Origin: Nakamurella deserti
GTDB taxonomy: Bacteria; Actinomycetota; Actinomycetes; Mycobacteriales; Nakamurellaceae
Direction of reading: 5' to 3'
NCBI RefSeq assembly: GCF_003260015.1
Contig: NZ_QCXS01000003.1
Coordinates: 238,315-302,314 of the forward strand
Length of the DNA: 64,000 bases
Numbering within the stretch: the first letter of the stretch is position 1; each line of letters starts with the position of its first letter. A program made the translations under genes and the position numbers. This document shows, piece by piece, positions 12,460 to 30,900 of the stretch. Under the pieces are notes generated by a model that worked only from the letters and a program-made list of their open reading frames with translations, searched no databases and was not told the origin of the DNA.

Positions 12460-12767
12460 GGTTCCTGTCCGCCGATCGGGCAGCATCCGTCGTACGCGGG
12501 GCACGGTCGTCCCCCGGGCCCAGCGCACCGTGCCCGGGACCGCGGCACCGGGAGCGCGGCTGTCCCGCCGACGGATCCTGCAGTCGATGTCCGGCGCCGT
12601 AGCGTCGGCCTGAATTCGGACAAAGGTAACGCAATCACCCGCTGGATGAGGTCGGAGGTCACGGGCTGCATCCGAGGATCACCCGTCGGAGGACCAGCGG
12701 TGCACCGTCGGGGAGTCCCGACGCGTCCGCTCTTCGATCGCGCCGCCCCGGCCGGGTGGGTGCGCCC
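12460..12767. other. Intergenic region upstream of the giant protein gene
   Basis: This 308-bp gap lies between the GT2 stop and the giant protein start, both on the minus strand. An AT-richer stretch at about 12610-12635 is the best guess for a promoter. I see no hairpin or gene. Confidence 0.4.
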
Positions 12768-13691: not shown

Positions 13692-13908
13692 GAAGTCACT
13701 CCCCTGCGATCCCTGGTCCTGTACCGTCGCCTGCGCAACCGCCTCTCGGCGGGTCCGCATCCACTGCCACCCGCCCTGAGGGACTTCGCTCAATGCTCGA
13801 CGCCGCCCGTGTCCACACACGCTCCGGTACAACCGGGTCGCGGTGTGTGACCGAGGTGGAAACTAGCAGCCGCACCCCGGGGCCCGCAGAGATACGGACA
13901 CGTTGGTC

Positions 13909-15903: not shown

Positions 15904-16860
15904 ATGCCCGGTCCCGCCGCCCCCGTCCGCACCGCACCCACCCGGCCCCGCTTCGGCCTGGCCCGCCGGTGGGGCCTCGTCGCACTGGCGGCGACGGTGC
16001 TCGGCACCGGCGTGATGTCCACGGCCGGCTCCGCCGAGGCGGCGGCCGGCTCCACCATCGAGATCATCGACGCCATCAGCCTCTCCGCGTCGACCAGCTA
16101 CCGCACCGTCGGGTTCGAGAACATGCCCAACGGTCCCGTCACCCCGCAGGCGTTCAACGACGCCGTCGGGGCGACGAACAAGAACACCGCCGCCTACGAC
16201 GACATGTCGATCGTCTCCGACGGGCGTGGCGGCAAGGCCGTCCGCACGGTCCTGAGGGCAGGCACCACCCACAGCCTCCCGACCAAGACCGACAACGGCA
16301 ACAACCTGTTCATCGCGCTCCCCGGCAGCTACGACGAGGCCTGCATGAGCTACGACATCCGGTTCGACCGCGACTTCGACTGGTCGCTGGGCGGCAAACT
16401 GCCCGGACTCGAGGGGGTCGCCCCGGGCACCTCGCTCGCCGCACCGACCGGCGGTAACAACACCGACAAGGGGTGGTCGGGACGGTTGATGTGGCTCGGC
16501 CCCAAGGCCTACAAGTGGGCGGGCCCGCTCAACATGGCGGTGAGCTACATGTACCACCCGGGACAGGCCGGAACCTACGGAGACAACGTCCGCTGGAACA
16601 CAGCCTTCGTCGCCGGCCAGTGGCACACGGTCAAGCAGTGCCACTCGATGAACACCGTGGGCAAGGCCGATGGCGTCCTGCGCGCCTGGATCGACGGGAA
16701 GCTCGTCGTCGACGACACCAGCTATGTCTACCGGGTCCGCAACGACGTCCACATCTCGCACATCGTCTTCAGCATCTTCCGCGGCGGCAACACCCTGGAC
16801 TGGGCCGGCAGCCGGGACAACTTCATCGACATCGACAACATCGCCATCACCAGCTCCTGA
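15904..16860 (+). CDS. Secreted PL14-like polysaccharide lyase
   Basis: The protein has 318 residues. The AGAAGG ribosome binding site supports ATG 15904. A Sec signal peptide ends near residue 47 (GSAEAAAGS). The mature protein is one beta-jelly-roll domain resembling PL14-type alginate/glucuronan lyases: YDIRFDRDFDWSLGGKLPGL, GWSGRLMWLGPKAY and GQWHTVKQCHSMNT. K165, S192 and R194 match in position and context the Lys/Ser/Arg I recall for the active site of the viral PL14 lyase vAL-1. C147 and C246 are also conserved in the paralogue at 17638 and may form a disulfide. It probably cleaves a uronate-containing polymer by beta-elimination. A strong terminator follows. Confidence 0.75.
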   Translation: MPGPAAPVRTAPTRPRFGLARRWGLVALAATVLGTGVMSTAGSAEAAAGSTIEIIDAISLSASTSYRTVGFENMPNGPVTPQAFNDAVGATNKNTAAYDDMSIVSDGRGGKAVRTVLRAGTTHSLPTKTDNGNNLFIALPGSYDEACMSYDIRFDRDFDWSLGGKLPGLEGVAPGTSLAAPTGGNNTDKGWSGRLMWLGPKAYKWAGPLNMAVSYMYHPGQAGTYGDNVRWNTAFVAGQWHTVKQCHSMNTVGKADGVLRAWIDGKLVVDDTSYVYRVRNDVHISHIVFSIFRGGNTLDWAGSRDNFIDIDNIAITSS

Positions 16861-17637
16861 CCCGGGCACGGTCGATTCCACCCCCGCCCCCCTGCAGCCA
16901 TGTGCTGCAGGGGGCGGGGGATTTGCCGTTCCCACCACCATGCGCGCGCATGCGTGTGATTTCGACCCGGACAAACATCGCGAACCGCGCCGGACGCTGA
17001 TCGTGATTCGCGCCACAACGAGCAACCCGTGCACCGAAAGGAAATCCGACAGTTCGCCCGGAAGGCCCGTCCCGGTGATTGCGTCATCGGAGGTCGACAC
17101 ACCGCCGGGGCTGTGTGTGCTCGGCCACACCGCCCGACGAAAGCCCTGCTGAGGGCGTGCCCGGGGCCGGATCGGCCGGTGAGGTCTCCCACCGTTGGTG
17201 CGCACTACCGCATCCATCCGGTGACCACCCGAGGGCGGCAGAGGCGCCGCAGTCCCCGCCGAGCCGTCCTGAGCCGACCGTAGTTCACCCTTTCAGCTCA
17301 AGGGATCACCGAACGGGCCTGCGTCATCCGGGTTCTCCAGGCGCCTTGCACCCGGCCGGGGCCACACCCCGGGCGGACTGCCACGCCCGGGTCTGCCGGC
17401 GGGCACACGTTCCGAGTTCCCGCCGTACCCGGGCGTGGTAGTGGAACCGTCCGCACGTCTTTCCAGCGTTAGTCATCGGCATTACTGTCCCGACAGGTCA
17501 CGAGGAGATCACGCATTCATTGACGAATACCCGTTTCGGCGCACTCATCGAGTGGCCGTCACCGCGTCCTCCCTTTTCCCGTGCCGTCCCTTTCCCGGTG
17601 GCGTGCACATCCAGCAGCTGAACAGAGGACGTCACCC
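16861..17637. other. Intergenic region between the two lyase genes
   Basis: This 777-bp gap begins with a strong terminator hairpin (16881-16920). An AT-richer zone at 17465-17540 includes the inverted repeat CTGTC-CC-GACAG (17485-17496) and is the probable promoter region of the next gene. Translations of the open frames here are low-complexity and have no support. Confidence 0.4.
16881..16920 (+). terminator. Strong terminator hairpin after the first lyase gene
   Basis: The arms 16881-16898 and 16904-16920 pair over 17 bp (TGCAGC / GCTGCA at the top, a C/G-rich base) with one bulged C and a CATGT loop. The next bases are ATTT. It starts 20 bases past the stop codon. Confidence 0.8.
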
Positions 17638-19239
17638 ATGCCCATTTGTCAGAAGGCCCCGGGATCTTCCTGGAGAGCCGCTCTGCGACGCCGGTCCACC
17701 CGCGCCGCCGTCGTGGGGATCACTCTCTCGACCCTGGCCACCGCAGTCATGGCCGTCCCGTCCGCCCAGGCCGACGACGTACCGCTGACCGTGGACAGCT
17801 TCACCCGGGCCGACGGCGCCGGGTGGGGTACAGCTCCCGACGGCGGTGAGTACACGACCACCGGTTCCGCCGACTTTTCCATCGTCGGCGGGAAAGGCGT
17901 GATCACCGGGCTCCAGCCCGGGAAGTCCGCCGGCGCGTTCCTCGATGATGTCTCGACCACCGAGGCCCTGGTGGAGTCCGTGGTCACGGTTCCGGCCGGT
18001 GACATCTCCGAACTCCGCCTGCACCACACCGTCGAGGCGCGGCGGCAGGACGACGGTTCCGCTTACCGCGGACGCGTGCTCATCGGCCCGGGCGGTGCCC
18101 TCACCGTCAGTGTGAGCCGGCTGTCGGGCGGCGTGGACACCGGTCTCGGATCGGTCCCCTTGTCCGTGAGCGCCGCAGCCGGACAGGATCTTGCGCTGCA
18201 GATGCAGGTCACGGGCACGGATCCGGTCACCGTGGAGCTCCGTGCCTTCCCGGCGGGCGAGGCCACGCCGGCCTGGCAGCAGACGGTCACCGACGCCGCT
18301 CCGGAGAAGATCGCGGCGGCCGGCGGGGTGGGTGTCTGGGACTACCTGTCCGGCGCGTCCCCGGAGGTGTCCGTGGCCTACGACTCGTTCGCCTCGTACG
18401 ACCTGGCCGCCGAGCCGGCGATCGCGGACACCGAACCCGTCGTCTCCGCTGCGCTGGCCACCACGAGCGGCACCGTCTACAAATCGACCACCTTCGACTC
18501 GATGGCGCTGGGAGCCGTCAACCCGGCGGCGTTCATCAGCGCCCTGGGATCGACGAACACCAACGCCTCGGCCTACAACGACATGAGCCTGGTGAACGAC
18601 AGCCGGGGCGGCAAATTCCTGCGGACCACCCTGAAAGCCGGGACCATCCACAGCAAGCCCGCTCCCGGAGACAACGGCGACAATCTCTTCATCTCCCTCC
18701 CCCGCAGCTACGACTCCGCCTGCGTGGAGTACCAGATCCGTTTCGACGGCAGCTTCGACTGGTCGCTGGGCGGAAAGCTGCCCGGTCTGCTGGGCGTGGC
18801 GCCCGGGACGGCCCCGTCCACCCCGACGGGCGGCGGCAAGACCGAGATGGGCTGGTCCGGACGCTTGATGTGGCTGGGGCCGAAGGCCTACAGCTGGGCC
18901 GGGCCGTCGAACATGGCGGTCAGCTACCTCTACAACTCGGGTCAGGCCGGGTACTACGGCGACAACGTGCGGTGGAACAAGGCGTTCGTCGCAGGCAAGT
19001 GGCACACGGTCAAGCAGTGCTACTCGATGAACACGATCGGCCAGTCCAACGGCACGCTCAAGGCGTGGATGGACGGACAGCAGGTCCTCAACATGAGCAA
19101 CGTCAAGTACCGTACGCGCAGCGACGTGCACATCACCCACCTGTCCTTCGCGTTGTTCCGCGGCGGCGGGACGCTGGACTGGGCGGGCAACCGCACCGGT
19201 TACGTCGACGTGGACAACATGAAGATCAGCAGCAGCTGA
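17638..19239 (+). CDS. Secreted two-domain protein: shared beta module plus PL14-like lyase
   Basis: The protein has 533 residues. AGAGGACG precedes ATG 17638, and a Sec signal peptide ends at about residue 45 (PSAQADD). Residues 46-255 form a beta-rich module homologous to the C-terminal module of both giant propeller proteins (starts VDSFTRADGAGWG, ends at a VAYDSFASYDL strand). Residues about 275-533 are a PL14-like lyase domain closely related to the 15904-16860 product. Candidate catalytic residues K380 (GGKLPGL), S407 and R409 (GWSGRLMW) are kept, as are C362 and C461. The extra module probably tethers the lyase to the same ligand as the giant proteins. A bidirectional-looking terminator follows. 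Confidence 0.75.
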   Translation: MPICQKAPGSSWRAALRRRSTRAAVVGITLSTLATAVMAVPSAQADDVPLTVDSFTRADGAGWGTAPDGGEYTTTGSADFSIVGGKGVITGLQPGKSAGAFLDDVSTTEALVESVVTVPAGDISELRLHHTVEARRQDDGSAYRGRVLIGPGGALTVSVSRLSGGVDTGLGSVPLSVSAAAGQDLALQMQVTGTDPVTVELRAFPAGEATPAWQQTVTDAAPEKIAAAGGVGVWDYLSGASPEVSVAYDSFASYDLAAEPAIADTEPVVSAALATTSGTVYKSTTFDSMALGAVNPAAFISALGSTNTNASAYNDMSLVNDSRGGKFLRTTLKAGTIHSKPAPGDNGDNLFISLPRSYDSACVEYQIRFDGSFDWSLGGKLPGLLGVAPGTAPSTPTGGGKTEMGWSGRLMWLGPKAYSWAGPSNMAVSYLYNSGQAGYYGDNVRWNKAFVAGKWHTVKQCYSMNTIGQSNGTLKAWMDGQQVLNMSNVKYRTRSDVHITHLSFALFRGGGTLDWAGNRTGYVDVDNMKISSS

Positions 19240-19299: not shown

Positions 19300-19315
19300 T
19301 TGCGTTTCCGGCCGG

Positions 19316-20260
19316 TCACGGCGTCCGGCGGTACTCCTGGTAGACGTAGCCGAAGGATCCGGCGGCCATCCCGGCGCCACGGGCCACGGTCCGGGTGCCC
19401 CGCACCCGGCGGCCCAGCCGGCCGGTGACCGCGCCGACGACCACGGCGGCGGAACCGGCGACGATCCGGACCAGCCCGATGCCCAGCGACTGTCCGCGGA
19501 CCGCGGTGCGTCGCAGGCCCGGCGCGGCCAGTTCCAGCGACGTCCTCGTCCACGAGTTCCCCGAGCGGAACGCCCGGCGCAGCACCCAGTCCCTGGTGGT
19601 CCGCGACGCCGGCACCTTGTCGATCACGACGGCCTGGTCGCACCAGATCATCCGACCGCCCGCCCGGACGAGCCGACGGGTGAACAAGGTGTCCGACCCC
19701 CCGCTGGCCCCGAACGCCTCGTCGAACCGCAGGGCGTGCCGGTGCACCTGGGCGAGGTCCAACAGCAGGTTGTTCGTCGCGGCCACCTCGACCGCCGTAC
19801 CGGTGGGCAGGCGGCGCCGGTCGAAGAAGCGGCCGGCCGCCACCCAGGCGTCGGGCTCCACATCGTACTCACTGACCACGGGCCCGACCACCGCGGCGGG
19901 GCGGTGTCGACGGTAGGTGGCGAGCAGCAGTTCCAGCCAGTCGTCCGTCGGCCGCTCGTCATCGTCGATGAAGACGAGCAGCGCGTCGGCAGGTGCCTCG
20001 TCGAGCGCCCGGTTGCGCGCCGCGGCGATGCCCGGGCGGGTCTCGTTGACGTACCACACCCGCCCGCCGAAGGCCGCCACGGCAGCTTCCGCGCTGCCCT
20101 CCGGGTCGTTGTCGACGACCATCAACCGCGCCCCGACCGCCTCCGTGTGCGCGAGGATGCGTGGCAGCGCCTCGCTCAGGTCACCCGGCCGACGGTAGGT
20201 GAGCATCGCGACGACCACGTCGAGGTCGGCTCCGAGTTGATCGACCGGTGCAGCGGACAT
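19316..20260 (-). CDS. Family 2 glycosyltransferase (last gene of the giant-protein operon)
   Basis: The protein has 314 residues from ATG 20260. A GTG at 20269 overlaps the upstream TGA (GTGA) and is an equally possible coupled start. GT-A motifs: DVVVAMLTYRRPGDLSEALP, LMVVDNDPEGSAE, RPGIAAARNRAL, and FIDDDERPTDDW with the metal-binding DDD. ASGGSDTLFTRRLV is typical of this GT2 branch. The C terminus is basic and hydrophobic (RIVAGSAAVVVGAVTG) and probably membrane associated. It lies 5 bp after the GT4 gene, so the two should be co-translated. The sugar and linkage are unknown. Confidence 0.9.
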   Translation of the reverse strand: MSAAPVDQLGADLDVVVAMLTYRRPGDLSEALPRILAHTEAVGARLMVVDNDPEGSAEAAVAAFGGRVWYVNETRPGIAAARNRALDEAPADALLVFIDDDERPTDDWLELLLATYRRHRPAAVVGPVVSEYDVEPDAWVAAGRFFDRRRLPTGTAVEVAATNNLLLDLAQVHRHALRFDEAFGASGGSDTLFTRRLVRAGGRMIWCDQAVVIDKVPASRTTRDWVLRRAFRSGNSWTRTSLELAAPGLRRTAVRGQSLGIGLVRIVAGSAAVVVGAVTGRLGRRVRGTRTVARGAGMAAGSFGYVYQEYRRTP

Positions 20261-20265
20261 GCCCG

Positions 20266-21402
20266 TCACTTTCCCGCCGCCAGCTCGTCGAGCCGGTCGG
20301 CCATTGTTCGTTGGTAGATGTGGGGTGCGTGGCGGTTCCGGGCGATGGCGACATCGGCGGCTGCCGCGATCCGGTAGTCCGACCACCGGTCGACGACCGC
20401 CCTCACGGCGGCGACCCACCCGTCGATGTCCCCGGCGGCGACGCGCTGGGCCGCGGAGTAGCCGGCCACCGCCTCGTCGAGCCCGCTGCTGGAGCTGACC
20501 ACCACCGGCCGCCCGGCCAGCACGGCTTCGACGGCCGTGTTGCCGAACGGTTCGTCGCCCTGGGACGGCACCAGTGCGATGTCGGAGTCGGCGAGGTGGG
20601 ACCAGACGTCCTCGGTGAAGCCGACGAAGGTGACCGCGTCGTCGAGGCCGGCCTCGGCCACCGTCCGGCGCAGCTCCTCCTCGAACCACTCGTAGCCGGG
20701 AAAGACCGAGCCGACGACGGCCAGCCGGGCTGGCACACCGCCGGCGACGAGACGCCGCAGCAGTTCGACGGCGACCTGGGGTCCCTTGCGTGGCGACAGC
20801 CGGCCGACGAACAGCAGCCGGACCCCGCCGGCCAGCGTCTCGCGAGCCGGCACCACCGCCGCCGGACCCGGAACGCCGTTGTAGACGACCTCGGAGTGGC
20901 GGGCGAGTGAGCGGTAGCTCTCCAGCAGCACTCCCCGGGAGAACTCGCTGTTGACGATCAGGTGGTCCGCCGCGAGCAGCGGCCCGGCCAGCACCCGGCG
21001 CAGCCACAGCGGGGCCGCCCGCTCGGACTCGTGGACGTGGCAGACCACGGGGCGTCGCAGGAGCCGGCTGAGCAGGAGCCACGACGGCACGGTCAACGTC
21101 GAGACGTAGACCATGTCGGCGGCCCGGATGAGCCGCACGCTGGAGGGCAGACTGCGCAGCGTGGTGGCGACCAGCCGCAGCATTCCCAGCGGCCGCAGCG
21201 CACTCTTGCGCAGCACCGGGGCTGGGCTGACGACGACCTCCCCACCCCGCCGCTCGATCTCCGGGACCAACGGCCCCGGGGCCGGCAGGGTCGTGACGAC
21301 CCGCCAGCCCCGGAGCTGCAGTCCTTCGATCGTCTCGATCATCACCCGGTCCGAGCCGTACAGCTCGGCACTGGGGTGGGCGATCAGGATCGAACGAGGC
21401 AC
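20266..21402 (-). CDS. Family 4 (GT-B) glycosyltransferase
   Basis: The protein has 378 residues; ATG 21402 has GGAAGGG upstream. N-terminal acceptor domain: SILIAHPSAELYGSDRVMIE, in which YGSDR is a common GT4 variant of the glycine loop; VCHVHE and LIVNSEFSRGVL are also typical. The C-terminal donor domain contains LLFVGRLSPRKGPQVAVELL and the EX7E-like region EPFGNTAVEAVLAGRPVVVS. It is a retaining transferase, assumed to add a sugar to the lipid-linked repeat unit. The gene starts 13 bp after the giant protein stop and ends 5 bp before the next GT2. Confidence 0.92.
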   Translation of the reverse strand: MPRSILIAHPSAELYGSDRVMIETIEGLQLRGWRVVTTLPAPGPLVPEIERRGGEVVVSPAPVLRKSALRPLGMLRLVATTLRSLPSSVRLIRAADMVYVSTLTVPSWLLLSRLLRRPVVCHVHESERAAPLWLRRVLAGPLLAADHLIVNSEFSRGVLLESYRSLARHSEVVYNGVPGPAAVVPARETLAGGVRLLFVGRLSPRKGPQVAVELLRRLVAGGVPARLAVVGSVFPGYEWFEEELRRTVAEAGLDDAVTFVGFTEDVWSHLADSDIALVPSQGDEPFGNTAVEAVLAGRPVVVSSSSGLDEAVAGYSAAQRVAAGDIDGWVAAVRAVVDRWSDYRIAAAADVAIARNRHAPHIYQRTMADRLDELAAGK

Positions 21403-21415
21403 GGCGACCCTTCCG

Positions 21416-24400
21416 TCACGGCTTGACCGCCTTCACCGCGAGGTCGTCGAAGGTGACGACCACGGGGGCGTTGGTGGAGCTGCCGGACAGGTACGGGTAC
21501 AGCGCGACGGTGCCGGCCGGCAACGGCGAGGAAGCGTCGGTGGCCGTGGCCTGCCACGTGGCGGGCTCGGTCGTGCCGGACTTCCAGATCTTCGCTCCGA
21601 GGGCAACGCTAGCTGAACCGGTGACGTCGAACTTGAGATTCAGCGAATCGCCCGCCTTGTACGACAGTCCGTTGACGGTGACGCTGCGCAGGCTGGTGCT
21701 CGCGCCGGCGACGGTCTTGGACAGCTGGACCACGACGGAGCCGTCGGCCAGCAGGCGGGCGGTGGCGCGGTACTCGGAGTTGCCGACCTTGCGGGCACCG
21801 AGCGACATGTACAGGCCGGCACCGGTCGGCGCCTTGTCCATGGCGAACGACACCGAGGTGCTGACATCGGCGGCCGTGGTGGCACCGAGGGTGGCCGTGG
21901 GGCCCGACCCGGCAGCGTTCAGGCGCACCTTGCCGGTACCACCGTTGACGGTGAAGTTCGACGCACCGCCGGTCACCGTCCAGGCGCCACCGATGTCGGC
22001 GGTGCCCCACCCCGAGGTGCTGGTCCGGGAGAAGGTGTCGGAGATCAGCGGGGTGGCCGCCGGGCTCGACACCGTGACCGGAGCCGTCACGGAGTGCGTC
22101 GCACCGTTGTCGTCGGTGACGGTCAACGTCACCTGGTAGGTGCCGGCAACCGCGTAGGTGTGGGTGGCGGTGGCCGTGGTGACCAGGTCCGTCGAGCCGT
22201 CGCCGAAGTTCCAGGCGTAGGCGGCGATCGTGCCGTCCGGGTCCTTCGACGCGGCGCCGTCGACCGACACCTGCAGGCCCGCGGTCGCGGAGGCGAAGAC
22301 CGCGGTGGGTGCGACGTTCGCGGGCGGCGGTGCCGTCACCGTGACCGTCTGCGTCGCGGACCGGCTGGCGCCGCTGTTGTCCACGACCGTCAACGTGACC
22401 GTGTACGAGCCTGCGGTCGCGTAGGTGTGCGTGGCGACGGCGCTGGTGACCGCGGCGGTGCCGTCCCCGAAGTTCCACGACTGGGAGGCGATGGAGCCGT
22501 CGGGGTCGGTCGAGGTGGACTCGACGTTGACCGTCAGGTTCTCCACGGCCTGGGTGAAGCCGGCGACCGGTGCCTGGTTGACCGGGGGTGCGGTGACCTC
22601 GATCGGCTGGCTGGTGGTCGTGGTCTTCCCCTGGTTGTCGGTGACCGTCAGGGTGATCGTCTTGCTGCCGGCGGTGTTGTAGGCGTGCGACGCGGTGACA
22701 CCGGTGGTCGTGAACCCGTCACCGAAGTTCCAGGCGTAGGACGCGATGGTGCCGTCGGGATCGGACGAGCCGGCCGCGTCCACGTTGGCGGTCAGCTGGG
22801 CGGCGGTCGCCGTGAAGGCGGCCACCGGGGCCTGGTTGACCGGTGCGGCGGTGACGGTGACCGGGTTGCTGACCGTGGTGGTCGCGCCCTTGTCGTCGGT
22901 GACGGTGAGGGTCACGGTGTAGGTGCCCGCAGCGGCGTAGGTGTGCGTCGGGTTGACGTCGGTGGAGCTGGCGCCGTCACCGAAGTTCCAGGCGGACGAG
23001 GCGATGGTGCCGTCGGCGTCGGTGGACGACGAGGTGAACGACGCGTCCAGGAACGTCGTGGCGGAGGTGAACCCGGCGACCGGCGCCTGGTTCGGCGGCG
23101 TCACCGTGTTCCCCAGGGTGAAGTGGTTCTTGACCTGGGCGGCGGTCAGGCCGCCGCTGTAGACGGCGACGTCGTCGATGGTGGCGTTGATGAAGCGGGA
23201 CCCGCTGCCCCAGTGGTTGTCACCGCCGACCCGCCAGTACCCGGTGGTGCCGTCGGCTCCGGTCTGACCGTTGCTGCCGACGAGGACGCCGTCGACGTAG
23301 AACCGCATGCCCTCGGCGTTGGTCTGGCTGCCGACGACGTGGTGCCACACCCCGTCGTTGAGAGCGGTCGGCGAGGTGATGGTGTTGGTGAACCCGGTCC
23401 AGACTCCGAAGGTGACCTTGCCGTCGGGCGTCATGTAGATGTGCCGGTCGTAGCCGCCGGACGTGCCCGTCTGGCTCGTCCCGAAGCCGATGATCTTGCC
23501 GCCGTTGGTCGACGTGGTCTTGAACCACGCCTCGACCGCGTAGTTCCTGGGGTTCACGAAGCTGTTGGTGCTGGCCACCAGGTCGTCGGCTCCGTCGAAG
23601 GCGGCCGCCGTGCCGGCGGTGCCCTTGATGCCGCCGGGGACACCCAGCGTGACGCCGTTCTGGATCACACCGGTCTGGTCGCCGTTGGGTCCGCTGTCGA
23701 CGGCGGTGGTGGCGCCGGCGGACTCCCCGAGCCGCCAGAACAGCAGCGGGCTGTCGTTGTAGACGGTGGCGCCGTACGGGTCGGTGGGCGGCGCCGGGAT
23801 GGTGGAGGTGCGGCCGGCGGCGACCCACTGCGCGTCGATCTGCGGGCGGCTCAGGACGGTCGGGTAGACCGCCACCTCGTCGATGGCACCGGCGAAGTTG
23901 TTCGAGACCACGTTCGGCCAGCCGCCCGTGTTGTCGCCTCCCACCCGCCAGTACCCGGAGTAGGCCTGTCCGGAGGTCACGTCGCTGCGCTGCGCGACCT
24001 GCTTGCCGTCGATGGACAACGTCATGCCGCCGGCACCCATGCTCGCGGTGATCTGGTGCCACTGGCCGTCGTTGTAACCGGTGCCCGAGTTGACGGTGGC
24101 CACCCAGCCGGGGTACACGCCGAAGAAGATGCGGCCGGCGCCGTCCATGTAGACGTGGCGGTCGTAGCTGCCGGAGTTACCGGTGCGGTTGTTGCCGAAG
24201 CCGATGATCTTGCCGCCGTTGGTGGTGGTCGTGTTGATCCACGCCTGGACGGTGAAGGTGTTCGGCCCGACGACAGCGGTCCGGGTGGCGGCCGACCCGG
24301 TGCCGTCGAAGGAGGACGCGGTGTCGCCGGCGATGGCGCCCGGTGCGACGGAGCGGGTGAGCCCGGCCGACGCGTCGGCGTCGTTGAACGTCGACGAGTT

Positions 24401-26149
24401 GTCGAACAGGACGTTGCCGCTGGTCTCGTTCATCGGCCAGTACGGGGAGGCGCCGTCGGCCAGCACGCGGGTCGTGTAGGCGCTGGTGGCGCCGGCGGCC
24501 GGCGCGGTGAAGTTGACGTTCTCGCTGGTGGCGGTGTTGCCGTCGGCATCGGTGGCGGTCAGGCGGTAACGGTAGACCGTGCCGGGCACCAGGTTGGCGG
24601 CCGGATCGATGTACCCCATCGTCGGGCGGTTCCAGAACGTCGAGGACGCCTCGACCTGGTGGATCAGCACGCCGTTGCGGGTGAGACGGTAGGTCAGGGT
24701 GTTGTCGTCCATGTCGGAGTTGGCCTGCCAGGTGACGCGGGCGGCTCCGGTGGACAGCCCGAGGACGGTGGGGTTGCTGTTGCCACCCTTGACGTCCGGA
24801 CCGACCTTCTTCGGCGCGATGGTGTCGACCGCGAAGCGCACCAGGCCCTGCTGGCCGACGCGGTTGACCAGCGGGAACTCCCCACCCATCACGACGTACT
24901 GACCGTTGCCGGTGACGCTCCAGGCAGCCTGTCCCTTGCCGGTGACGTCACCCGGCTCGAGGTCGGGGAACCAGTTGATCATCGACGGGCTGGGGGTGCC
25001 GAACCAGTCGAAGTAGCCGTGCGGGTCGTGCTGCAGCGTGCCGGTCGCGTTGGTGGTGAAGGCCAGCGCGTGGCGCATGTTGGTCGACCAGGGGTCGGAC
25101 TGGAAGAAGCCGCCGAGGTTGCCGCAGTAGTGGGCGTGGCTGACCGTGTAGACCTGGGTACCGTCGGAGTAGGCGTCGTAGGTGTCGCCGTGGCAGTCCT
25201 CGACCCACGTGACGTCACCCGAGGCGGGATCGGCCGAGAACGTGCCCTCCAGGTTGCCGCCGGCCCCGAAGTGGTAGGCGGTCCCGTAGATGGCGTTGCC
25301 GTCGGTGCTCAGGCTGGTGATCGCGGCGTTCTTGCCCGCGTTGCGGATCTTCGCGGTGGCGTTCCAGGGCAGCAAGGCGCCGGTGACCGGATCCAGTGCG
25401 CCCAGTCCGTAGGCGGGCGAGCCGTTGAGGTTCTGGAAGGCCCCACCGACGACGACCTGGCCGGCGGGCGAGAGCACCATGGCGTTGACGGTTCCGTCGG
25501 ATGTCGGCGCCCAGGCGGTGGGCTTGCCGTCGACGGCGCTGAAGGCCGCGAGGCGGGGGCGGGCCAGCCCTCCGCCGGTGGTGAAGATGCCGCCCACGTA
25601 CACCGTCGTGTCGGTGGCGACGATGGCGTTCACCGTCGCGTCGACATTGGGCGCGAAGGAGTTGATGATGGCGCCGGTGGTGGCGTCGTAGGCGGCGATG
25701 CGGTTGTGCTTGACGCCGTTGGCCGTCGTGAACGCGCCGCCGACGTACACCCGCTTCTTGTCGGGAGAGACCGCGACCGCCTTGACCTGGGCGTTCAGCG
25801 AGGGCGCGATCGAGGTGATCAGCGCACCGGTCGTGAGGTTGTAGGCCAGCAGGTTGTTGCGGGTGGTCAGCTGGGTGCCCGGTGCGGCCCCCGCCGGCCG
25901 GGCGTTGGCGAACTGGCCGCCGGCCCAGACGGTGTTGCCGACGATGGCCTGGTCCCACACCACGCCGTCGATCTGGACGGTGGGCAGCGCGTCCGCGGTC
26001 ACCGTGGACGACGCCGGCGCGGCGATGGGCGAGACGTCGGCTGACGCCTGGGGTGCGACGATCGTCGACACCGTCAGTCCACCGGCGACCAGCGCGCTGG
26101 TTGTCAGGACTGCGGTGAGACGAGCGCGCAGGTGGTCGGGGAACCTCAT
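21416..26149 (-). CDS. Giant secreted protein: beta-propeller, FnIII, two LamG, four PKD domains, C-terminal module
   Basis: The protein has 1577 residues. ATG 26149 has AGGAG nine bases upstream; the frame remains open further but runs into the lipoprotein gene. A signal peptide ends near residue 38 (PQASADVS). Domains: propeller-like repeats (about 50-445), FnIII (450-552), LamG (555-782), a second LamG (785-1013), PKD domains at 1020-1102, 1106-1188, 1191-1273 and 1278-1362 (each with WNFGDG), and the shared C-terminal module (1366-1577). DCHGDTYD and SHAHYCGNLGG (C319, C342) are conserved with the 8965-12459 paralogue. No sortase or membrane anchor is present. It is encoded within a glycosyltransferase operon, 50 bp after a lipoprotein gene and 13 bp before the GT4, which suggests a dedicated role with the polymer those enzymes make. 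Confidence 0.87.
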   Translation of the reverse strand: MRFPDHLRARLTAVLTTSALVAGGLTVSTIVAPQASADVSPIAAPASSTVTADALPTVQIDGVVWDQAIVGNTVWAGGQFANARPAGAAPGTQLTTRNNLLAYNLTTGALITSIAPSLNAQVKAVAVSPDKKRVYVGGAFTTANGVKHNRIAAYDATTGAIINSFAPNVDATVNAIVATDTTVYVGGIFTTGGGLARPRLAAFSAVDGKPTAWAPTSDGTVNAMVLSPAGQVVVGGAFQNLNGSPAYGLGALDPVTGALLPWNATAKIRNAGKNAAITSLSTDGNAIYGTAYHFGAGGNLEGTFSADPASGDVTWVEDCHGDTYDAYSDGTQVYTVSHAHYCGNLGGFFQSDPWSTNMRHALAFTTNATGTLQHDPHGYFDWFGTPSPSMINWFPDLEPGDVTGKGQAAWSVTGNGQYVVMGGEFPLVNRVGQQGLVRFAVDTIAPKKVGPDVKGGNSNPTVLGLSTGAARVTWQANSDMDDNTLTYRLTRNGVLIHQVEASSTFWNRPTMGYIDPAANLVPGTVYRYRLTATDADGNTATSENVNFTAPAAGATSAYTTRVLADGASPYWPMNETSGNVLFDNSSTFNDADASAGLTRSVAPGAIAGDTASSFDGTGSAATRTAVVGPNTFTVQAWINTTTTNGGKIIGFGNNRTGNSGSYDRHVYMDGAGRIFFGVYPGWVATVNSGTGYNDGQWHQITASMGAGGMTLSIDGKQVAQRSDVTSGQAYSGYWRVGGDNTGGWPNVVSNNFAGAIDEVAVYPTVLSRPQIDAQWVAAGRTSTIPAPPTDPYGATVYNDSPLLFWRLGESAGATTAVDSGPNGDQTGVIQNGVTLGVPGGIKGTAGTAAAFDGADDLVASTNSFVNPRNYAVEAWFKTTSTNGGKIIGFGTSQTGTSGGYDRHIYMTPDGKVTFGVWTGFTNTITSPTALNDGVWHHVVGSQTNAEGMRFYVDGVLVGSNGQTGADGTTGYWRVGGDNHWGSGSRFINATIDDVAVYSGGLTAAQVKNHFTLGNTVTPPNQAPVAGFTSATTFLDASFTSSSTDADGTIASSAWNFGDGASSTDVNPTHTYAAAGTYTVTLTVTDDKGATTTVSNPVTVTAAPVNQAPVAAFTATAAQLTANVDAAGSSDPDGTIASYAWNFGDGFTTTGVTASHAYNTAGSKTITLTVTDNQGKTTTTSQPIEVTAPPVNQAPVAGFTQAVENLTVNVESTSTDPDGSIASQSWNFGDGTAAVTSAVATHTYATAGSYTVTLTVVDNSGASRSATQTVTVTAPPPANVAPTAVFASATAGLQVSVDGAASKDPDGTIAAYAWNFGDGSTDLVTTATATHTYAVAGTYQVTLTVTDDNGATHSVTAPVTVSSPAATPLISDTFSRTSTSGWGTADIGGAWTVTGGASNFTVNGGTGKVRLNAAGSGPTATLGATTAADVSTSVSFAMDKAPTGAGLYMSLGARKVGNSEYRATARLLADGSVVVQLSKTVAGASTSLRSVTVNGLSYKAGDSLNLKFDVTGSASVALGAKIWKSGTTEPATWQATATDASSPLPAGTVALYPYLSGSSTNAPVVVTFDDLAVKAVKP

Positions 26150-26199
26150 TGGTCGACTCCTGGGTGAACGGCTCTGACGGGGGCTGTGGAGGTGCGGGT

Positions 26200-26964
26200 T
26201 CATGCGAGATCGCCGGTGAAGACGACGACCGGCGCATCGACCGTGTAGCTGACGCTCACGGTGGCGGGACCGGTGTAGGTGGACGGCAGGGTGAAGACGT
26301 AGGTCCCGTCGGCGGACGCACCGGGAGCCAGCGATCCGGTCATCGGTGCGGCGGGGCTGGTGGTCATCGGGATGGCAGGGGTGCCGGCGGCGTCCTGGAG
26401 ATCGACGACCACCACCCCGAGGTCGATGGGCGCGTCGCTGTCGTTGACGAGCCGCACGGTCAGGGCGACGCCCGGACCGGCGATCTCCCCCGGCAGTTCG
26501 GCCGTGGTGGTCAGCTTCTCGGTCTTCGTCAGGGAAGCGGTGACCCCGTTCCCGTAGTCGGCGGTGTCGGTCACCGCGACCGGCGGGTTCGTCGTCACGG
26601 TGGATTCCGCCACCGTCTCGTCGATGTTCCCGCCGCCCGGCGCCGGCACCTCGGTGGTGGCCGGATCCGGTGCCGGCGGCAGCTCGGTGTTCGCCGGGAT
26701 CGACTCCGACGACTCCGGTGCCGACGGGTCGGTGGTCGCCGGCGGCAGCACGTTGTCCGAGCCGTCCGGGTTCTCCGCGGCCGTGTCCGACACCGGCCCG
26801 TCCGACACCTGCCCGTCCGACACCGTCTGCGACGCACCGGAAGTGACCGACGCAGCGGTGCTGGTGGCCTGGTCGGAGTCGGCGGAGCTGCACGCCCCGA
26901 CGGTGAGCAGGACGAGCGCACCGAGGGCGGCCACCAGGGCACGGGTGCGGGGGACGGCGTTCAT
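26200..26964 (-). CDS. Lipoprotein with Pro/Ser/Thr/Asp-rich linker and C-terminal beta domain
   Basis: The protein has 254 residues. ATG 26964 overlaps the stop of the CDP-alcohol phosphotransferase (ATGA), so the genes are coupled. A lipobox, LLTVGAC, ends the signal peptide, and cysteine ~22 should be lipidated. Residues about 25-125 are disordered, with short repeats such as VSDGQVSDGPVSD. The C-terminal ~120 residues (from YGNGVTASLTKTEKL) resemble a DUF4352/Ig-like domain: LTVRLVNDSDAPIDLGVVVV and a final SVSYTVDAPVVVFTGDL. The function is unknown. As an extracytoplasmic lipid-anchored partner it could hold the unanchored giant protein encoded just downstream; that is inference. Confidence 0.82.
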   Translation of the reverse strand: MNAVPRTRALVAALGALVLLTVGACSSADSDQATSTAASVTSGASQTVSDGQVSDGPVSDTAAENPDGSDNVLPPATTDPSAPESSESIPANTELPPAPDPATTEVPAPGGGNIDETVAESTVTTNPPVAVTDTADYGNGVTASLTKTEKLTTTAELPGEIAGPGVALTVRLVNDSDAPIDLGVVVVDLQDAAGTPAIPMTTSPAAPMTGSLAPGASADGTYVFTLPSTYTGPATVSVSYTVDAPVVVFTGDLA

Positions 26965-27794
26965 CGGGCGGGATCCGTTCGGGGGGTGGCCGGGCGGGGG
27001 GCGTCGGTGCGGGGTGCGTCCAGCGAGGCCATGTCGCGGAACCACTTGACGGCGGCCAGCGCCATGAAGGCGGCGTTGGCGACGAACAGCAGGGAGTAGA
27101 CGGTGAAGAAGACGGAGCTCGCGCCGAGCAGCAGGAACACCGCGCACAGCAGGCCGTAGTCGGTCGGCACCACCAGCAGCGACCGCAGCAACGAGGGCTT
27201 GCGGTCCCGGGCGACCGGTGTGCCGGTCTTCGCGGCCTGCCGCGCCCGCAGCAGGTCGTTCAGGATCATCCCGAAGAACATGACGTTGGCGACCAGCACG
27301 AACCCGATCGGCACCAGCAGCCAGCCCGCCGACCCGAGGTCGAAGAACCGGTACGCGGCGATCAGCACGGCCAGGTGCAGCGCGGTGATCTTGGCGGCGT
27401 CGACCATGTGGTCCAGCCACTCCCCCGCGTGGCTGCCGCCGCCGCGCAGCCGGGCCAGCTGGCCGTCGGCGGCGTCGAAGGCGTAACCGACGACCAGCGC
27501 TAGGCACACCACGATCCCCGACCACCAGGACGGCCGGGCCAGGGCGAGTACGGCGATCCCGGCGAAGGAGAACGCCGCCGAGATGCCGGTGATGACGTTC
27601 GGCGTCAACCCCGCCAGGTAACCCGCCGCGGCGAGCCGCCGGCCGAGCGGCCGGTTCACGTACCGCGAGTAGGCGGGCGCACCCGGCGTGTGCTTCTGCG
27701 CGCCGGCGAGCCTGGCGACGACATCGCCGTACCGCTCCCGGGTGGGGGGCGATGTCGCGGCGCGGTCAGGGCCGGCCGTGGTGGTGCTGGGCAT
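26961..27794 (-). CDS. CDP-alcohol phosphatidyltransferase family membrane enzyme
   Basis: The protein has 277 residues from ATG 27794, which has CGGAGAA at good spacing; a GTG ten codons earlier has no such site. The family motif is complete: DAADGQLARLRGGGSHAGEW followed by LDHMVD, matching DX2DGX2ARX8GX3DX3D, the metal- and CDP-binding core. About six membrane helices follow. These enzymes displace CMP from a CDP-alcohol with an acceptor hydroxyl. In this operon, between a DUF1972 glycosyltransferase and a lipoprotein, it could form a phosphodiester-linked decoration or lipid anchor. The TagD-like enzyme at 2622-3074 could supply the CDP-alcohol. Confidence 0.9.
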   Translation of the reverse strand: MPSTTTAGPDRAATSPPTRERYGDVVARLAGAQKHTPGAPAYSRYVNRPLGRRLAAAGYLAGLTPNVITGISAAFSFAGIAVLALARPSWWSGIVVCLALVVGYAFDAADGQLARLRGGGSHAGEWLDHMVDAAKITALHLAVLIAAYRFFDLGSAGWLLVPIGFVLVANVMFFGMILNDLLRARQAAKTGTPVARDRKPSLLRSLLVVPTDYGLLCAVFLLLGASSVFFTVYSLLFVANAAFMALAAVKWFRDMASLDAPRTDAPRPATPRTDPAR

Positions 27795-27842
27795 CTGGGG
27801 TTCTCCGGGATCAGGGACGGTCACAACGGGTGGTTCTCACAC

Positions 27843-29048
27843 TCACGAAGGCTGCTTCTGTAGCTCTCTCGGGTGGGACGCCCGTCGCGCTCGGTCATCA
27901 CGCGATTTGCGCAGATTCCGGCAGAGAGTTTCGTAGCGGTCGGCGACGTCGTCCCAGGTGTACAGATCGGCCCGTCGCAGGGCCGCCGCCCCGCGGCTGC
28001 GGGTGGCGTCCGGATCGGCCTCGGCCTCCTCGACCAGCCGGCGGACGTCGTCGGCCGAGGCGAAGTAGCGGCCGGAGTCGCCGAGCACCTCGCGGTTGAA
28101 CACGACGTCGAAGGCGGTGGTCGCCGCGGCCGCGCCGAGCGCGCGCAGCAGCGACGGGTTGGTGCCGCCGACCGAGTGGCCGTGCAGGTAGGTCAGGCCG
28201 TTGGCGTACAGCTGGTCGAGCAGCTCCTGGTCCCACACCCCACCGAGGAAGCGGACCCGGTCGTCGGCCAGCGCGTGCAGTCGCGCGGTGTACTCGTCGG
28301 CGTAGGGCGCCGAACCGACCACGATGAGCGGCTTGGTCGCCGAGCTCGCCGTGTACCCCTCGACGATGAGGTGCACGTGGTTCTCCGGCTCGAACCGGGC
28401 CACCACCAGGTGGTAGCCGCGGCTGGTCAGGTCCAGTTCGTGCAGCCGGTCGGACGCGTCGCTGACGATCGGCGCCCCGTAGGCGATCAGCTCGGTGTCG
28501 GCGTCGAACTTCTGCCGGTAGTAGTCGCTGATGCCCTGGGCGTCGGCGATCAGGGCGTCCGACCACCACACCGAGGCCCGCTCGGCCAGCTGGTAGTAGC
28601 GCTTGCCGGTGCCGCCCCACTTGCCGCGCTGCCACTCGAGGCCGTCGACGTGGGTGGCGAACGGGATGCGCGCGGCCCGCAGGATCGGCAGGAACGGCGC
28701 GTTCGCCGAGTTGAACACGATGGCGGCATCGGTGCGGTGGCCGAAGAGGTGCGCCGCGGACAGCGCGGTGTGGCTCAGCGTCTCCAGCGAGCGCTTGCGC
28801 ATCGCCGGCTTGTGCACGAGTTCCATGCCGCGGTAGCTGGTGGGGCGCTGGTCGAGCGGGGTCTCGCTGGTCGCGTCCCGGCAGTAGACGACGACCCGGT
28901 GGCCGCGGTCGGCCAGCCGGTGGCCCACCTCCTCGACACACGTCTCGAACCCGCCGTACCGGGCGGGGACACCGCGGGTGCCGACGAGCGCGATGCTCAT
29001 CGGGGTGGAGCCGGCCGCGCGGTCGGCGGCGGTCGTGGTGTCGGTCAT
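27843..29048 (-). CDS. DUF1972/GT4-type glycosyltransferase (rhamnosyltransferase-like)
   Basis: The protein has 401 residues; ATG 29048 is seven bases after AGGAG. The DUF1972 signature IALVGTRGVPARYGGFETCV opens the GT-B fold, as in WchF/RgpA-type rhamnosyltransferases. Further landmarks are HVDGLEWQRGKWGGTGKRYY, LIADAQGISDYY, a donor-domain stretch VVARFEPENHVHLIVEGY, and YLHGHSVGGTNPSLLRAL. The donor may be dTDP-rhamnose, but no rml genes are in the window, so the sugar stays open. It would often add the second sugar after the initiating phosphosugar transferase, and it lies 286 bp downstream of that gene. It is the first gene of the tightly packed run down to 19316. Confidence 0.9.
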   Translation of the reverse strand: MTDTTTAADRAAGSTPMSIALVGTRGVPARYGGFETCVEEVGHRLADRGHRVVVYCRDATSETPLDQRPTSYRGMELVHKPAMRKRSLETLSHTALSAAHLFGHRTDAAIVFNSANAPFLPILRAARIPFATHVDGLEWQRGKWGGTGKRYYQLAERASVWWSDALIADAQGISDYYRQKFDADTELIAYGAPIVSDASDRLHELDLTSRGYHLVVARFEPENHVHLIVEGYTASSATKPLIVVGSAPYADEYTARLHALADDRVRFLGGVWDQELLDQLYANGLTYLHGHSVGGTNPSLLRALGAAAATTAFDVVFNREVLGDSGRYFASADDVRRLVEEAEADPDATRSRGAAALRRADLYTWDDVADRYETLCRNLRKSRDDRARRASHPRELQKQPS

Positions 29049-29334: not shown

Positions 29335-30900
29335 TCAGTAGGCACCTGACGACGACAGGACGGCCTTGGCCGTCTTGAACAGGATCATCAGGTCGCCCGT
29401 GATGGACCAGTTCTCGACGTAGGACAGATCGAGCCGGACCGTCTCCTCCCAGGACAGGTCGCTGCGGCCGGAGACCTGCCACAGGCCGGTCATGCCCGGC
29501 CGGACCAGCAGTCGGCGGTGCACCTCGTCCTGGTACTGGGCGACCTCGGCGGCCAGCGGCGGCCGCGGCCCGACGAGGCTCATCTCCCCGCTCACCACGT
29601 TGAACAGCTGCGGGATCTCGTCGAGGCTGTACCGACGCAGGAACCGCCCCACGCGGGTGATCCGCGGGTCGTTCTTGATCTTGAACAGCACCTCGTTGCC
29701 GGCGTCGGTCTGTTGCGCGCGGCGCAGATCCTCCAGCATGGCTTCGGCGTCGACCCGCATGGTGCGGAACTTGGCCATCCGGAAGCGGGTTCCGTCGACC
29801 CCCACCCGCTCCTGGCGGAAGAACACCGGGCCGGGACTGTCGAGCTTGACCGCCACCGCGATGGCCAGCATCACCGGTGAGAACAGCATCAGCAGCAGGG
29901 TCGCACCGACCATGTCGAACGCCGACTTCACCACCCGGGTCGGACCCGAGTACGTCGGCCGCTCCACGTGGATCAGCGGCAGTCCGGCCACCGGCTGGGT
30001 GTGCACCCGGGGACCGGCGATGTCGGTCAGGGCCGGCGCGAGGATGAGCTCGGCGTCGGTCTTCTCCAGCTCCCACGACAACTCGCGGACGGCGGTGGGA
30101 CCGAACGCCGCGGTCGCGGTCACGGCGACCGCGTCGGCGCCGGTCATCCGGACGGCGCTGAGCACCTGGCTCAGTGACCCGACGACCGGGACCCCCAGGA
30201 TGTTCTCCCCGGACAGCGTCGCCTGGCCGGCGGCCGCCGACTGCGCGGTACCACCGGACACACACGCGCCGATGACCCGGTACCCCGCACGCGGGGCGCG
30301 CCGCAGCTCGGTGATCAGGTCACGCACCGTCTGCGCGTTGCCCACGGCGAGCACGTTGGTGACGAACTGCGCCCGGTCCCGCTGCAACTGCAGCCACCGC
30401 CGCCACACGAAGCGGCCGGCCACCAGGCCGATCACGCCGGCCGGCATGACCACCAGCAGATAGCTGCGGGAGAACGGAAGTTGGAACAGGTAGGACACCA
30501 TCGTGTACAGCGCGAAGACCACGAAGGTGGCGTTCAGCACCCGCTTGTACTCCTCGGAGCCGAAGCCGACGACCTTGGCGTCACGGGTGTCGAAGACGGC
30601 CAGCAGCAGGATCCACAGCAGGACCACCGCGCAACTGGTGGTGATCGAGTCGATCCCGAACGGGTCGATCGGCCCCCGCAGCCCGAGGCTGATGATGGAT
30701 TGCGCGAAGTGCGCGCCCGCCGCCGCCCAGATGATGACGAGCAGATCGGTGAGGGCGAGGTAGCGGGCGTAGCGCTGCCGCCAGCTCAGCCCGGACGCGT
30801 GCTGCGAACGGGCCGGGCGGTGGGTGGTGCGGACGGAGCCGCGGGTCGTGGCGGCGGGCGCCGGGGTGGAGCGTGCTGGTGTCTCGTCGATCAGGGCCAC
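29335..30900 (-). CDS. Initiating polyprenyl glycosylphosphotransferase (WbaP/WcaJ type)
   Basis: The protein has 521 residues from GTG 30900. It starts the repeat unit by moving a hexose-1-phosphate from a UDP-sugar to undecaprenyl phosphate. The N-terminal half has membrane helices (about 46-170) and a Rossmann-like domain (180-310). The C-terminal catalytic domain (about 325-516) is textbook: SPGPVFFRQERVGVDGTRF, MAKFRTMRVDAE, RRYSLDEIPQLFNVVSGEMS, LVGPRPPLAAEV, RPGMTGLWQVSGRSDLSWEE and LDLSYVENWS. The start is 3 bp past the stop of the small membrane protein gene, so the two are almost certainly co-translated. Confidence 0.95.
   Translation of the reverse strand: MALIDETPARSTPAPAATTRGSVRTTHRPARSQHASGLSWRQRYARYLALTDLLVIIWAAAGAHFAQSIISLGLRGPIDPFGIDSITTSCAVVLLWILLLAVFDTRDAKVVGFGSEEYKRVLNATFVVFALYTMVSYLFQLPFSRSYLLVVMPAGVIGLVAGRFVWRRWLQLQRDRAQFVTNVLAVGNAQTVRDLITELRRAPRAGYRVIGACVSGGTAQSAAAGQATLSGENILGVPVVGSLSQVLSAVRMTGADAVAVTATAAFGPTAVRELSWELEKTDAELILAPALTDIAGPRVHTQPVAGLPLIHVERPTYSGPTRVVKSAFDMVGATLLLMLFSPVMLAIAVAVKLDSPGPVFFRQERVGVDGTRFRMAKFRTMRVDAEAMLEDLRRAQQTDAGNEVLFKIKNDPRITRVGRFLRRYSLDEIPQLFNVVSGEMSLVGPRPPLAAEVAQYQDEVHRRLLVRPGMTGLWQVSGRSDLSWEETVRLDLSYVENWSITGDLMILFKTAKAVLSSSGAY

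Follow-up and report, generated by a model that had tools for sequence, protein, structure and literature searches.

Results

Six packed minus-strand genes lie in a probable exopolysaccharide-type neighbourhood

We analysed a 64,000-nt stretch of Nakamurella deserti contig NZ_QCXS01000003.1 (the window), in which six packed minus-strand genes occupy positions 19316-29048. A first-pass annotation had described six genes in close succession, and all six frames are open where it placed them. It had given the gaps as 48, -4, 50, 13 and 5 bp. The last four are correct, while the first, between the DUF1972 and CDP-alcohol genes, is 18 bp when counted from the GTG start and about 48 bp from the next ATG. 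The run and its neighbours are listed below; the starts of most neighbour genes are first-start readings.

29335..30900, minus strand: initiator, a polyprenyl-phosphate sugar transferase, 521 aa (PF02397, 235 bits; TIGR03025, 446.5 bits, cut-off 295.55)
27843..29048, minus strand: DUF1972 glycosyltransferase, 401 aa (PF09314, 65.7 bits, cut-off 25)
26961..27824, minus strand: CDP-alcohol phosphotransferase, 287 aa, several hydrophobic segments (PF01066, CDP-OH_P_transf, 34.0 bits, cut-off 22)
26200..26964, minus strand: lipoprotein, 254 aa, with lipobox, Ser/Thr/Pro/Ala/Gly-rich low-complexity stalk and C-terminal Ig-like domain
21416..26149, minus strand: giant secreted protein, 1577 aa (signal-type N-terminus by hydropathy; Pfam domains)
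24800..26032, minus strand: seven-bladed beta-propeller head of the giant (model mean pLDDT 95.9; WD40-type propellers, Z about 31)
23120..24349, minus strand, approximate limits: two LamG (concanavalin-like) domains (PF13385, 2 stretches)
22070..23095, minus strand, approximate limits: four PKD repeats (PF18911, 4 stretches)
21416..22036, minus strand: CBM66-like jelly-roll module, C-terminus of the giant (model mean pLDDT 92.6; CBM66 4azz, Z 18.6)
20266..21402, minus strand: GT4 glycosyltransferase, 378 aa (PF13692 and PF00534, above cut-offs)
19316..20260, minus strand: GT2 glycosyltransferase, 314 aa (PF00535, above cut-off)
17581..19239, plus strand: PL14-type lyase with a CBM66-like module as in the giant (PF21294, 110 bits; module, 181 bits)
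15904..16860, plus strand: second PL14-type lyase (PF21294, 111 bits)
13903..15360, plus strand: polysaccharide flippase (PF13440; MOP flippase model, 234 bits, below cut-off 273)
12768..13832, minus strand: GT2 glycosyltransferase adjoining the second giant (PF00535)
8965..12528, minus strand: second giant, with propeller (61% identity), LamG, two PKD and end module
5589..7193, minus strand: Wzz-type chain-length and tyrosine-kinase protein (PF02706; TIGR01007, 167.6 bits, cut-off 108.05)

The two plus-strand lyase genes converge on the minus-strand run. A gap of 286 bp separates the DUF1972 gene from the initiator. A scan for sigma-70 promoters and terminators gave signal near shuffle level, and Rfam returned no match within positions 15000-34000 of the window.

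The DUF1972 glycosyltransferase scores 201.9 bits against its nearest NCBIfam model, Cps2T rhamnosyltransferase (NF046071), below the equivalog cut-off of 500. The CDP-alcohol enzyme lies nearest to inositol-phosphate lipid synthases in NCBIfam, all below cut-off (phosphatidylinositol phosphate synthase NF045883, 38.5 bits; equivalog cut-off 170). Residues D117, D120, G134, D138 and D142 of the family motif, which we take to be DxxDGxxAR...GxxxDxxxD, are invariant in 13 homologues, and the predicted product matches both this motif and the PF01066 profile.

The giant combines a constant propeller head with a variable tail

The annotation of the giant as a propeller/LamG/PKD protein was borne out by Pfam, which finds a Rax2-type propeller, two Laminin_G_3 stretches and four PKD_4 stretches. 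The propeller scores 49 bits against Rax2 (PF12768; cut-off 28.8) over part of the model. Seven blades were counted from DSSP strands of the predicted structure, and single WD40 seven-blade chains align along nearly all of it; WD40 chains took up the PDB fold lists, so that another propeller family, the lyase fold included, may still fit. PDB sequence searches with the propeller profile (13 matches at E<=10) and with the lipoprotein profile returned nothing informative.

Six residues, E262, C280, D283, H299, H301 and C303, do not vary among 44 propellers; C280 and C303 are the only cysteines among the giant's 1577 residues. With loops labelled by the WD40 strand order, the top loops (159 positions) contain 22 invariant residues and the bottom loops (62 positions) contain 3. 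Mean conservation did not differ significantly between top and bottom loops (p 0.15), and conservation of one face was therefore dropped as support.

While the head is constant, the tail varies, with 32 module combinations in 135 ORFs. The CBM66-like end module is common to the giant and to the PL14-type lyase of the window, and it also occurs in 8 of 10 scanned beta-helix proteins from such loci. Nor is the giant a lone oddity, since 21 of the 394 genomes sampled in the class carry full-type relatives; the named genome set holds at least 529 related stretches.

The lipobox of the lipoprotein reads LLTVGACSS by eye; Pfam gave the protein no match at E 1e-3. DUF4352 (PF11611) reaches 13.2 bits (E 0.11), against a curated cut-off of 25.9 bits, and matches 25 of 36 homologous lipoprotein domains weakly at E<=0.1 (best 5.9e-7). 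In three genomes in which no lipobox was found (G033, G052 and G060), a predicted membrane helix seems to replace it as the attachment.

Giant and lipoprotein occur as a pair

Among the 394 class genomes, 19 carry both the full-type propeller and the lipoprotein domain, 2 carry the giant only (G075 and G328), none carries the lipoprotein only and 373 carry neither. At most 4 propeller, 11 lipoprotein, 5 DUF1972 and 7 CDP-alcohol candidates were scored per genome, so that absences in these counts are lower bounds. The full-type limits (437 bits for the propeller, 71 for the lipoprotein and 450 for DUF1972) were set at score gaps after the lists had been inspected. In 14 of the 19 genomes, giant and lipoprotein sit on the same strand no more than 1.5 kb apart; in the other 5 they are placed otherwise. 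By genome labels, the lipoprotein is present in 14 of 16 giant-bearing genera. In a set of 61 relatives, the giant (propeller identity of at least 43%) and the lipoprotein occur in the same 18 genomes; G019 and G053, with propellers at 39% and 34% identity and no lipoprotein match, were classed as diverged. Common descent inflates all such counts, and the Fisher values ignore kinship. As judged from sequence, the pairing of lipoprotein and giant is genuine. The first-pass annotation had named a giant widespread without its lipoprotein as evidence against a joint system; instead, the lipoprotein accompanies 19 of the 21 full-type giants.

The order initiator, DUF1972 glycosyltransferase, CDP-alcohol phosphotransferase, lipoprotein, giant was found in 17 of 79 named loci, including Arthrobacter and Cellulomonas; these loci were picked via the propeller, several come from one record, and the association was tested in this direction only. 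The same order in other genera suggests that the arrangement exceeds chance. A further 21 of the 79 show no lipoprotein domain; several of these are ended by contig ends, and three are Cryobacterium loci with 10 kb upstream.

Conservation of the pair with the two flanking glycosyltransferases had been proposed as a check. It holds for the DUF1972 enzyme, which was detected at E<=1e-60 in all 21 giant-bearing genomes. It does not hold for the other side: GT4 and then GT2 directly follow the giant in only 5 of the 79 named loci, so those two genes are the least constant members of the module. The unit had also been set too small upstream, where initiator and CDP-alcohol enzyme belong to the conserved order, and its limits were too narrow around the run, with lyases, flippase, Wzz/kinase and a second giant nearby. 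The proposal of a single system, in which enzymes for a polymer act with a large binding protein and its anchored partner, is partly supported: it stands for the pairing and is weaker on the constancy of GT4 and GT2 and on the limits of the unit.

The CDP-alcohol gene is a recurring neighbour: a propeller lies within 25 kb of it in 36 of 50 genomes carrying this subfamily. Among the matches listed, diverged propellers have a CDP-alcohol gene at most 25 kb away in 19 of 20 genomes; mapping of seven such genomes found the CDP-alcohol gene kept and no lipoprotein next to the propeller. Between Nakamurella genomes, the genes around the core change order. In 168 phylum-wide genomes, some of the same class, only the window genome's own matches exceeded 437 bits; the remaining matches reached at most 212 bits and were mostly partial.

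Discussion

A recurring module comprises an initiator, a DUF1972 glycosyltransferase, a CDP-alcohol phosphotransferase, an N-terminally membrane-anchored Ig-like protein and a giant, the last with a constant seven-bladed propeller head and a variable LamG/PKD/CBM66-like tail. We give a probability of roughly one half to the reading that the run forms the centre of an exopolysaccharide locus which encodes polymer-holding hardware as well, that is, a dedicated protein-polysaccharide anchoring system. This reading draws on the co-occurrence, the five-gene order, the closeness of propellers to the CDP-alcohol gene, the shared end module, the constant head and variable tail, the apparently kept membrane attachment and the Vibrio precedent discussed below. 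Against it stand the giants without a lipoprotein, the 5 of 19 pairs that are not same-strand neighbours, the diverged propellers for which no adjacent lipoprotein was found, the lack of a significant conservation difference between top and bottom loops and the inflation of the counts by common descent. In such a system, the polymer made by the locus enzymes would leave the cell by a flippase/Wzz-type route. The secreted giant would grip it with its lectin-like modules, and the propeller would hold the giant at the cell via the anchored partner, the polymer or both. The giant could thereby crosslink and retain the polymer as a capsule or matrix, which lyases bearing the CBM66-like module might trim or release.

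As the main rival, the propeller could instead be a polymer-processing enzyme (a lyase, hydrolase or transglycosylase) with the invariant HxH, Glu, Asp and two cysteines as an active or metal site and a tail that merely targets it. The invariance of these residues in 44 propellers, the sole cysteines among them, is consistent with this idea, as are the lyases with a matching end module at the same locus; histidine-using propeller lyases exist and offer a precedent. However, a Pfam scan of 44 members at E<=0.1 showed no propeller-enzyme family, and strict pairing with an anchored protein better suits a structural role, leaving a catalytic propeller unlikely. It is distinctly less probable that giant and anchored protein act together as an adhesin, attaching to outside surfaces or to other cells, which is merely co-regulated with the polymer of the locus and does not bind it. 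LamG, PKD and CBM66-like modules are able to bind foreign glycans, and highly variable tails are expected of outward-facing parts. That reading fits poorly with an end module common to the giant and enzymes of the same loci, and with the closeness of propeller and CDP-alcohol gene (25 kb at most) in most genomes of that subfamily.

Simple hitch-hiking, in which a surface-protein family accumulates in exopolysaccharide islands with no functional link, would suit the fluid gene order around the core and the inflation of co-occurrence by common descent. We consider it very unlikely, since the lipoprotein is present in nearly all giant-bearing genera and, among the matches listed, even diverged propellers sit near a CDP-alcohol gene. 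The least probable of the alternatives is a protein-glycosylation or cell-wall glycopolymer system, in which the glycosyltransferases and CDP-alcohol enzyme decorate the giant and the lipoprotein stalk, or build a wall polymer to which both attach. The Ser/Thr-rich stalk and the sub-threshold likeness to inositol-phosphate lipid synthases point that way. Against this, the initiator and the Wzz/kinase exceed the cut-offs of exopolysaccharide models, and no oligosaccharyltransferase family was found in the 20 window proteins scanned.

A more specific and rather improbable reading is that the CDP-alcohol phosphotransferase writes a phospho-alcohol mark on the polymer or its lipid end, that the propeller's invariant His/Asp/Glu face is dedicated to reading the mark and that the anchored Ig-like protein tethers this face to the membrane. 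Such a role would account for the CDP-alcohol gene within 25 kb of diverged propellers that have no adjacent lipoprotein. If true, it would be a writer-reader-anchor capsule system, spread through actinobacteria, with an origin separate from the Vibrio matrix adhesins.

Comparison with known systems

To our knowledge, few bacteria have well-described matrix proteins whose genes lie with those for the polymer that the proteins hold, and we found no description of the present module in the open-licence PubMed Central literature. It gives a common context to four groups without names: the propeller type, the anchored protein, the CBM66-like module and the CDP-alcohol subfamily.

The 44 aligned propellers all match the model of Rax2, a fungal polarity protein, at E<=0.1 (DUF5122 in 42 of 44), but the match covers part of the 254-position model, whereas the full-type family keeps its own invariant residues over 411 positions. 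The initiator, flippase, Wzz/kinase and glycosyltransferases resemble a Wzx/Wzy-type locus, which differs in that here the giant, the anchored partner and the CDP-alcohol enzyme lie inside the run; no Wzx/Wzy-type polymerase was found in the 20 window proteins scanned. In structure, the giant's end module matches CBM66 best (4azz; Z 18.6, rmsd 2.4, 163 residues), although identity is 14% and other concanavalin-like folds follow at Z 15-17. The modelled module is CBM66-like in fold, and its sugar binding is putative. Two Clavibacter loci (L098 and L099) carry the initiator, DUF1972, CDP-alcohol gene, GT4 and giant in that order. Four Clavibacter EPS clusters have been reported; the excerpted text of that report mentions neither giant nor lipoprotein, and we paired the two loci with no cluster named in it (PMC4059874).

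The closest functional parallel is in Vibrio cholerae, where rbmC sits in the VPS gene region. Bap1 and RbmC are reported to be secreted modular biofilm adhesins with a conserved beta-propeller, which binds exopolysaccharide, and lectin-like modules (PMC10102183). The giant is likewise of secreted type and modular, with a propeller and lectin-like modules known here from sequence and models. It differs in having seven blades by DSSP strands of the model, where the Vibrio propeller has eight, and in showing none of the Vibrio beta-prism domains among its Pfam matches at E<=1e-3. The LamG, PKD and CBM66-like modules, the anchored-partner gene and the adjoining CDP-alcohol enzyme also set it apart. 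Bap1 and RbmC are absent from the 13 PDB matches at E<=10, which come from a sequence search with the propeller profile and not from a pairwise comparison. Our best reading, by analogy, is that the Nakamurella system would work like Bap1/RbmC while lying outside that family. The Vibrio authors remark that the generality of the double-sided-tape design would be interesting to see (PMC10102183). The present module, widespread in actinobacteria, allows that question to be tested: its propeller head stays constant, its lectin-like tails are exchangeable, it comes with an anchored partner, and a phosphotransferase recurs in it. In many actinobacteria the set of polymer enzymes, giant and membrane-anchored partner probably holds polymer to cells.

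The gene run and its surroundings

Six tightly packed minus-strand genes had been described in the first-pass annotation, and measurement of frames and gaps bore this out from 29048 down to 19316. A DUF1972 glycosyltransferase, a CDP-alcohol phosphotransferase, a lipoprotein, a giant protein of 1577 residues and two glycosyltransferases (GT4 and GT2) follow each other with gaps of 18 bp (about 48 if counted from the next ATG), -4, 50, 13 and 5 bp. The domain calls also held, with Pfam supporting both upstream enzymes, both downstream glycosyltransferases and the giant's propeller, LamG and PKD modules. Pfam and NCBIfam scans added a flippase, two PL14-type lyases, another GT2, a second giant, a Wzz/tyrosine-kinase protein and a UDP-glucose/GDP-mannose dehydrogenase family gene to the locus; no polymerase was identified among the 20 window proteins scanned. 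A uronic-acid polymer may be suspected from the dehydrogenase and the PL14-type lyases.

Features around the run (window positions unless a contig is named)
29335-30900, minus, same strand as the run: sugar-transferase initiator, a seventh gene 286 bp upstream
15904-16860, plus: PL14-type lyase without the CBM66-like module
17581-19239, plus: PL14-type lyase with the CBM66-like module (181 bits)
8965-12528, minus: second giant, beside a GT2, with no lipoprotein of its own nearby
33219-36089, plus: PEP carboxylase-like gene, read by eye
G000:C3:1012220-1013449 and G000:C2:1007318-1008535: further giant-type propellers of the same genome, outside the window

The two lyase genes lie in tandem and converge on the run. 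Counting that of the second giant, the genome (4.6 Mb) encodes three further giant-type propellers, at 61, 51 and 50% identity. The PEP carboxylase-like gene also adjoins the module in nine mapped relatives (65-69% identity).

The lipoprotein and the giant occur together

Among 61 relatives, the propeller (at least 43% identity) and the lipoprotein (at least 52 bits) are found in an identical set of 18 genomes. Within the genus, 13 of 17 genomes have the pair and the other four have neither part above 23 bits. An even sample of 394 genomes of the class was searched as well, and gaps in the scores set the limits at 437 bits for a full-type propeller (next score 250) and 71 bits for the lipoprotein domain (next 57). 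Full-type propellers were detected in 21 genomes and the lipoprotein domain in 19, all of them inside the 21, which supports co-conservation of lipoprotein and giant; G075 and G328 have the giant without the lipoprotein. Counted from genus labels, 14 of 16 genera with the giant also hold the lipoprotein. Common descent inflates these co-occurrence figures.

The two genes lie on the same strand within 1.5 kb of each other in 14 of the 19 genomes with both. They are divergent with 0.7 kb between them in G105 and on separate contigs in G422; in G159, G332 and G265 the distance is 4.6 to 5.4 kb. N. endophytica has a second, diverged pair apart from its main locus (L075, G008:C4, 5409-7465).

Gene order was then compared across 79 named loci selected by propeller. 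The lipoprotein domain turns up somewhere in 58. Where upstream DNA sufficed (73 loci), it precedes the first giant by at most 1.5 kb in 49. It was not found in 21 of 79, several of them truncated by contig ends; three Cryobacterium loci lack it despite 10 kb of upstream DNA. The CDP-alcohol gene lies upstream within 3 kb of the first giant in 25 of 66 loci, and the initiator within 8 kb upstream in 17 of 48. The order initiator, DUF1972, CDP-alcohol, lipoprotein, giant is found on one strand in 17 of 79 loci, and its last four genes in 20. Of the glycosyltransferases flanking the pair, DUF1972 is found no more than 5 kb upstream in 24 of 58 loci, and the giant-GT4-GT2 order occurs in 5 of 79. 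This order is retained in the mapped relatives G008 and G013, and occurs with 1 to 3 kb intervening in G002, G032 and G052.

Upstream enzymes and diverged propellers

Of the 21 genomes with the giant, 17 have the close DUF1972 subfamily (at least 450 bits) and the other four a more distant DUF1972 (E<=1e-60). Since 14 genomes without a full-type giant also have the close subfamily, it is not exclusive to the giant. The CDP-alcohol subfamily occurs in 18 of the 21 giant genomes and in 32 others. At least 37 of these 50 genomes have a propeller on the same contig, within 25 kb in at least 36. Among the matches listed, the propeller is of diverged type only (127-249 bits) in 20 of these 37 genomes, and in 19 it lies within 25 kb of the CDP-alcohol gene. 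In seven diverged-propeller genomes that were mapped, no adjacent lipoprotein domain was found, and six have Wzz-like or initiator genes in the vicinity. On these figures, the deepest link is that of propeller and CDP-alcohol enzyme, and the tightest that of full-type propeller and lipoprotein. Loci L176-L181, from 5.8-10 Mb genomes with the genus label g50, lack the lipoprotein but combine a diverged propeller protein with the CDP-alcohol enzyme and with Wzz-like or initiator genes.

Architecture of the two proteins

Inspection by eye shows a lipobox in the lipoprotein. Some 100 residues, rich in Ser, Thr, Pro, Ala and Gly, form its stalk, and its C-terminal domain carries a G-E-x-x-G-P motif that hardly varies. 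Weak DUF4352 matches were obtained for 25 of 36 such domains, the window copy reaching only E 0.11. No lipobox was found in G033, G052 and G060; since their N-terminus resembles a membrane helix, membrane attachment seems to persist in another way.

The 411-residue propeller head, modelled from 44 homologues (mean pLDDT 95.9), resembles seven-bladed propellers of WD40 type (Z about 31), a widespread fold that reveals little about function. Residues invariant in 44 of 44 propellers include E262, C280, G282, D283, H299, H301, C303, Q368 and E385 (add 39 for full-protein numbering), and C280 and C303 are the only cysteines of the giant. There is a chance that these residues mark an active site. 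Conservation did not differ significantly between the propeller faces.

Among 135 complete, distinct giant ORFs (median 1344 residues, stop to stop), LamG, PKD and CBM66-like modules are combined in the tails in 32 different sets of counts, and 12 ORFs have none of these modules. Tandem giants are frequent, with three in G012. In a Nakamurella MAG (L072, G009:C153, 13287-14772), the giant directly following the lipoprotein is interrupted by stops, with an intact copy nearby, reflecting either decay or an assembly error.

The end module has no credible Pfam match. Its model is a concanavalin-type jelly roll (mean pLDDT 92.6) whose best structural matches are CBM66 entries (Z 18.6). Forty ORFs have the module without a propeller match, some being giant fragments; a right-handed beta-helix region was detected in 8 of ten scanned and no match in the other 2. 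Secreted-type beta-helix proteins with the module were seen at loci L038, L040, L043, L056, L060, L098, L135 and L169, and might be polymer lyases or epimerases. The giant thus has a module in common with polymer-active enzyme types, such as the PL14-type lyase at 17581-19239, and no other indirect sign speaks as strongly for its meeting the same polymer.

Proposed working and relation to known systems

In the most likely reading, drawn from genes, sequence comparison and models, the enzymes of the run would assemble a polymer and the giant would be secreted, its lectin-like tail gripping the polymer and its head held by the anchored partner, by the polymer or by both. Binding is predicted, and either head or tail could be the polymer-facing end. 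Several points speak against this reading: the lipoprotein was not found in two genomes with the giant or in 21 of the 79 named loci, some pairs are not adjacent, the propeller faces show no significant difference in conservation, and the invariant residues may mark an active site. A bolder idea, prompted by the CDP-alcohol gene staying with diverged propellers, is that this enzyme makes a mark which the head would read.

Full-text searches of open-licence literature found no description of the module. The parts belong to known families; their combination and spread appear undescribed in the open-licence literature searched. Matrix proteins encoded at polymer loci are a known kind. In its proposed mode of action the system comes closest to the Vibrio cholerae proteins Bap1/RbmC, in which, according to PMC10102183, the propeller binds exopolysaccharide and other domains face outward. 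Judged by modelled blade number and by lectin domains, which both differ, the giant is not a member of the Bap1/RbmC family.
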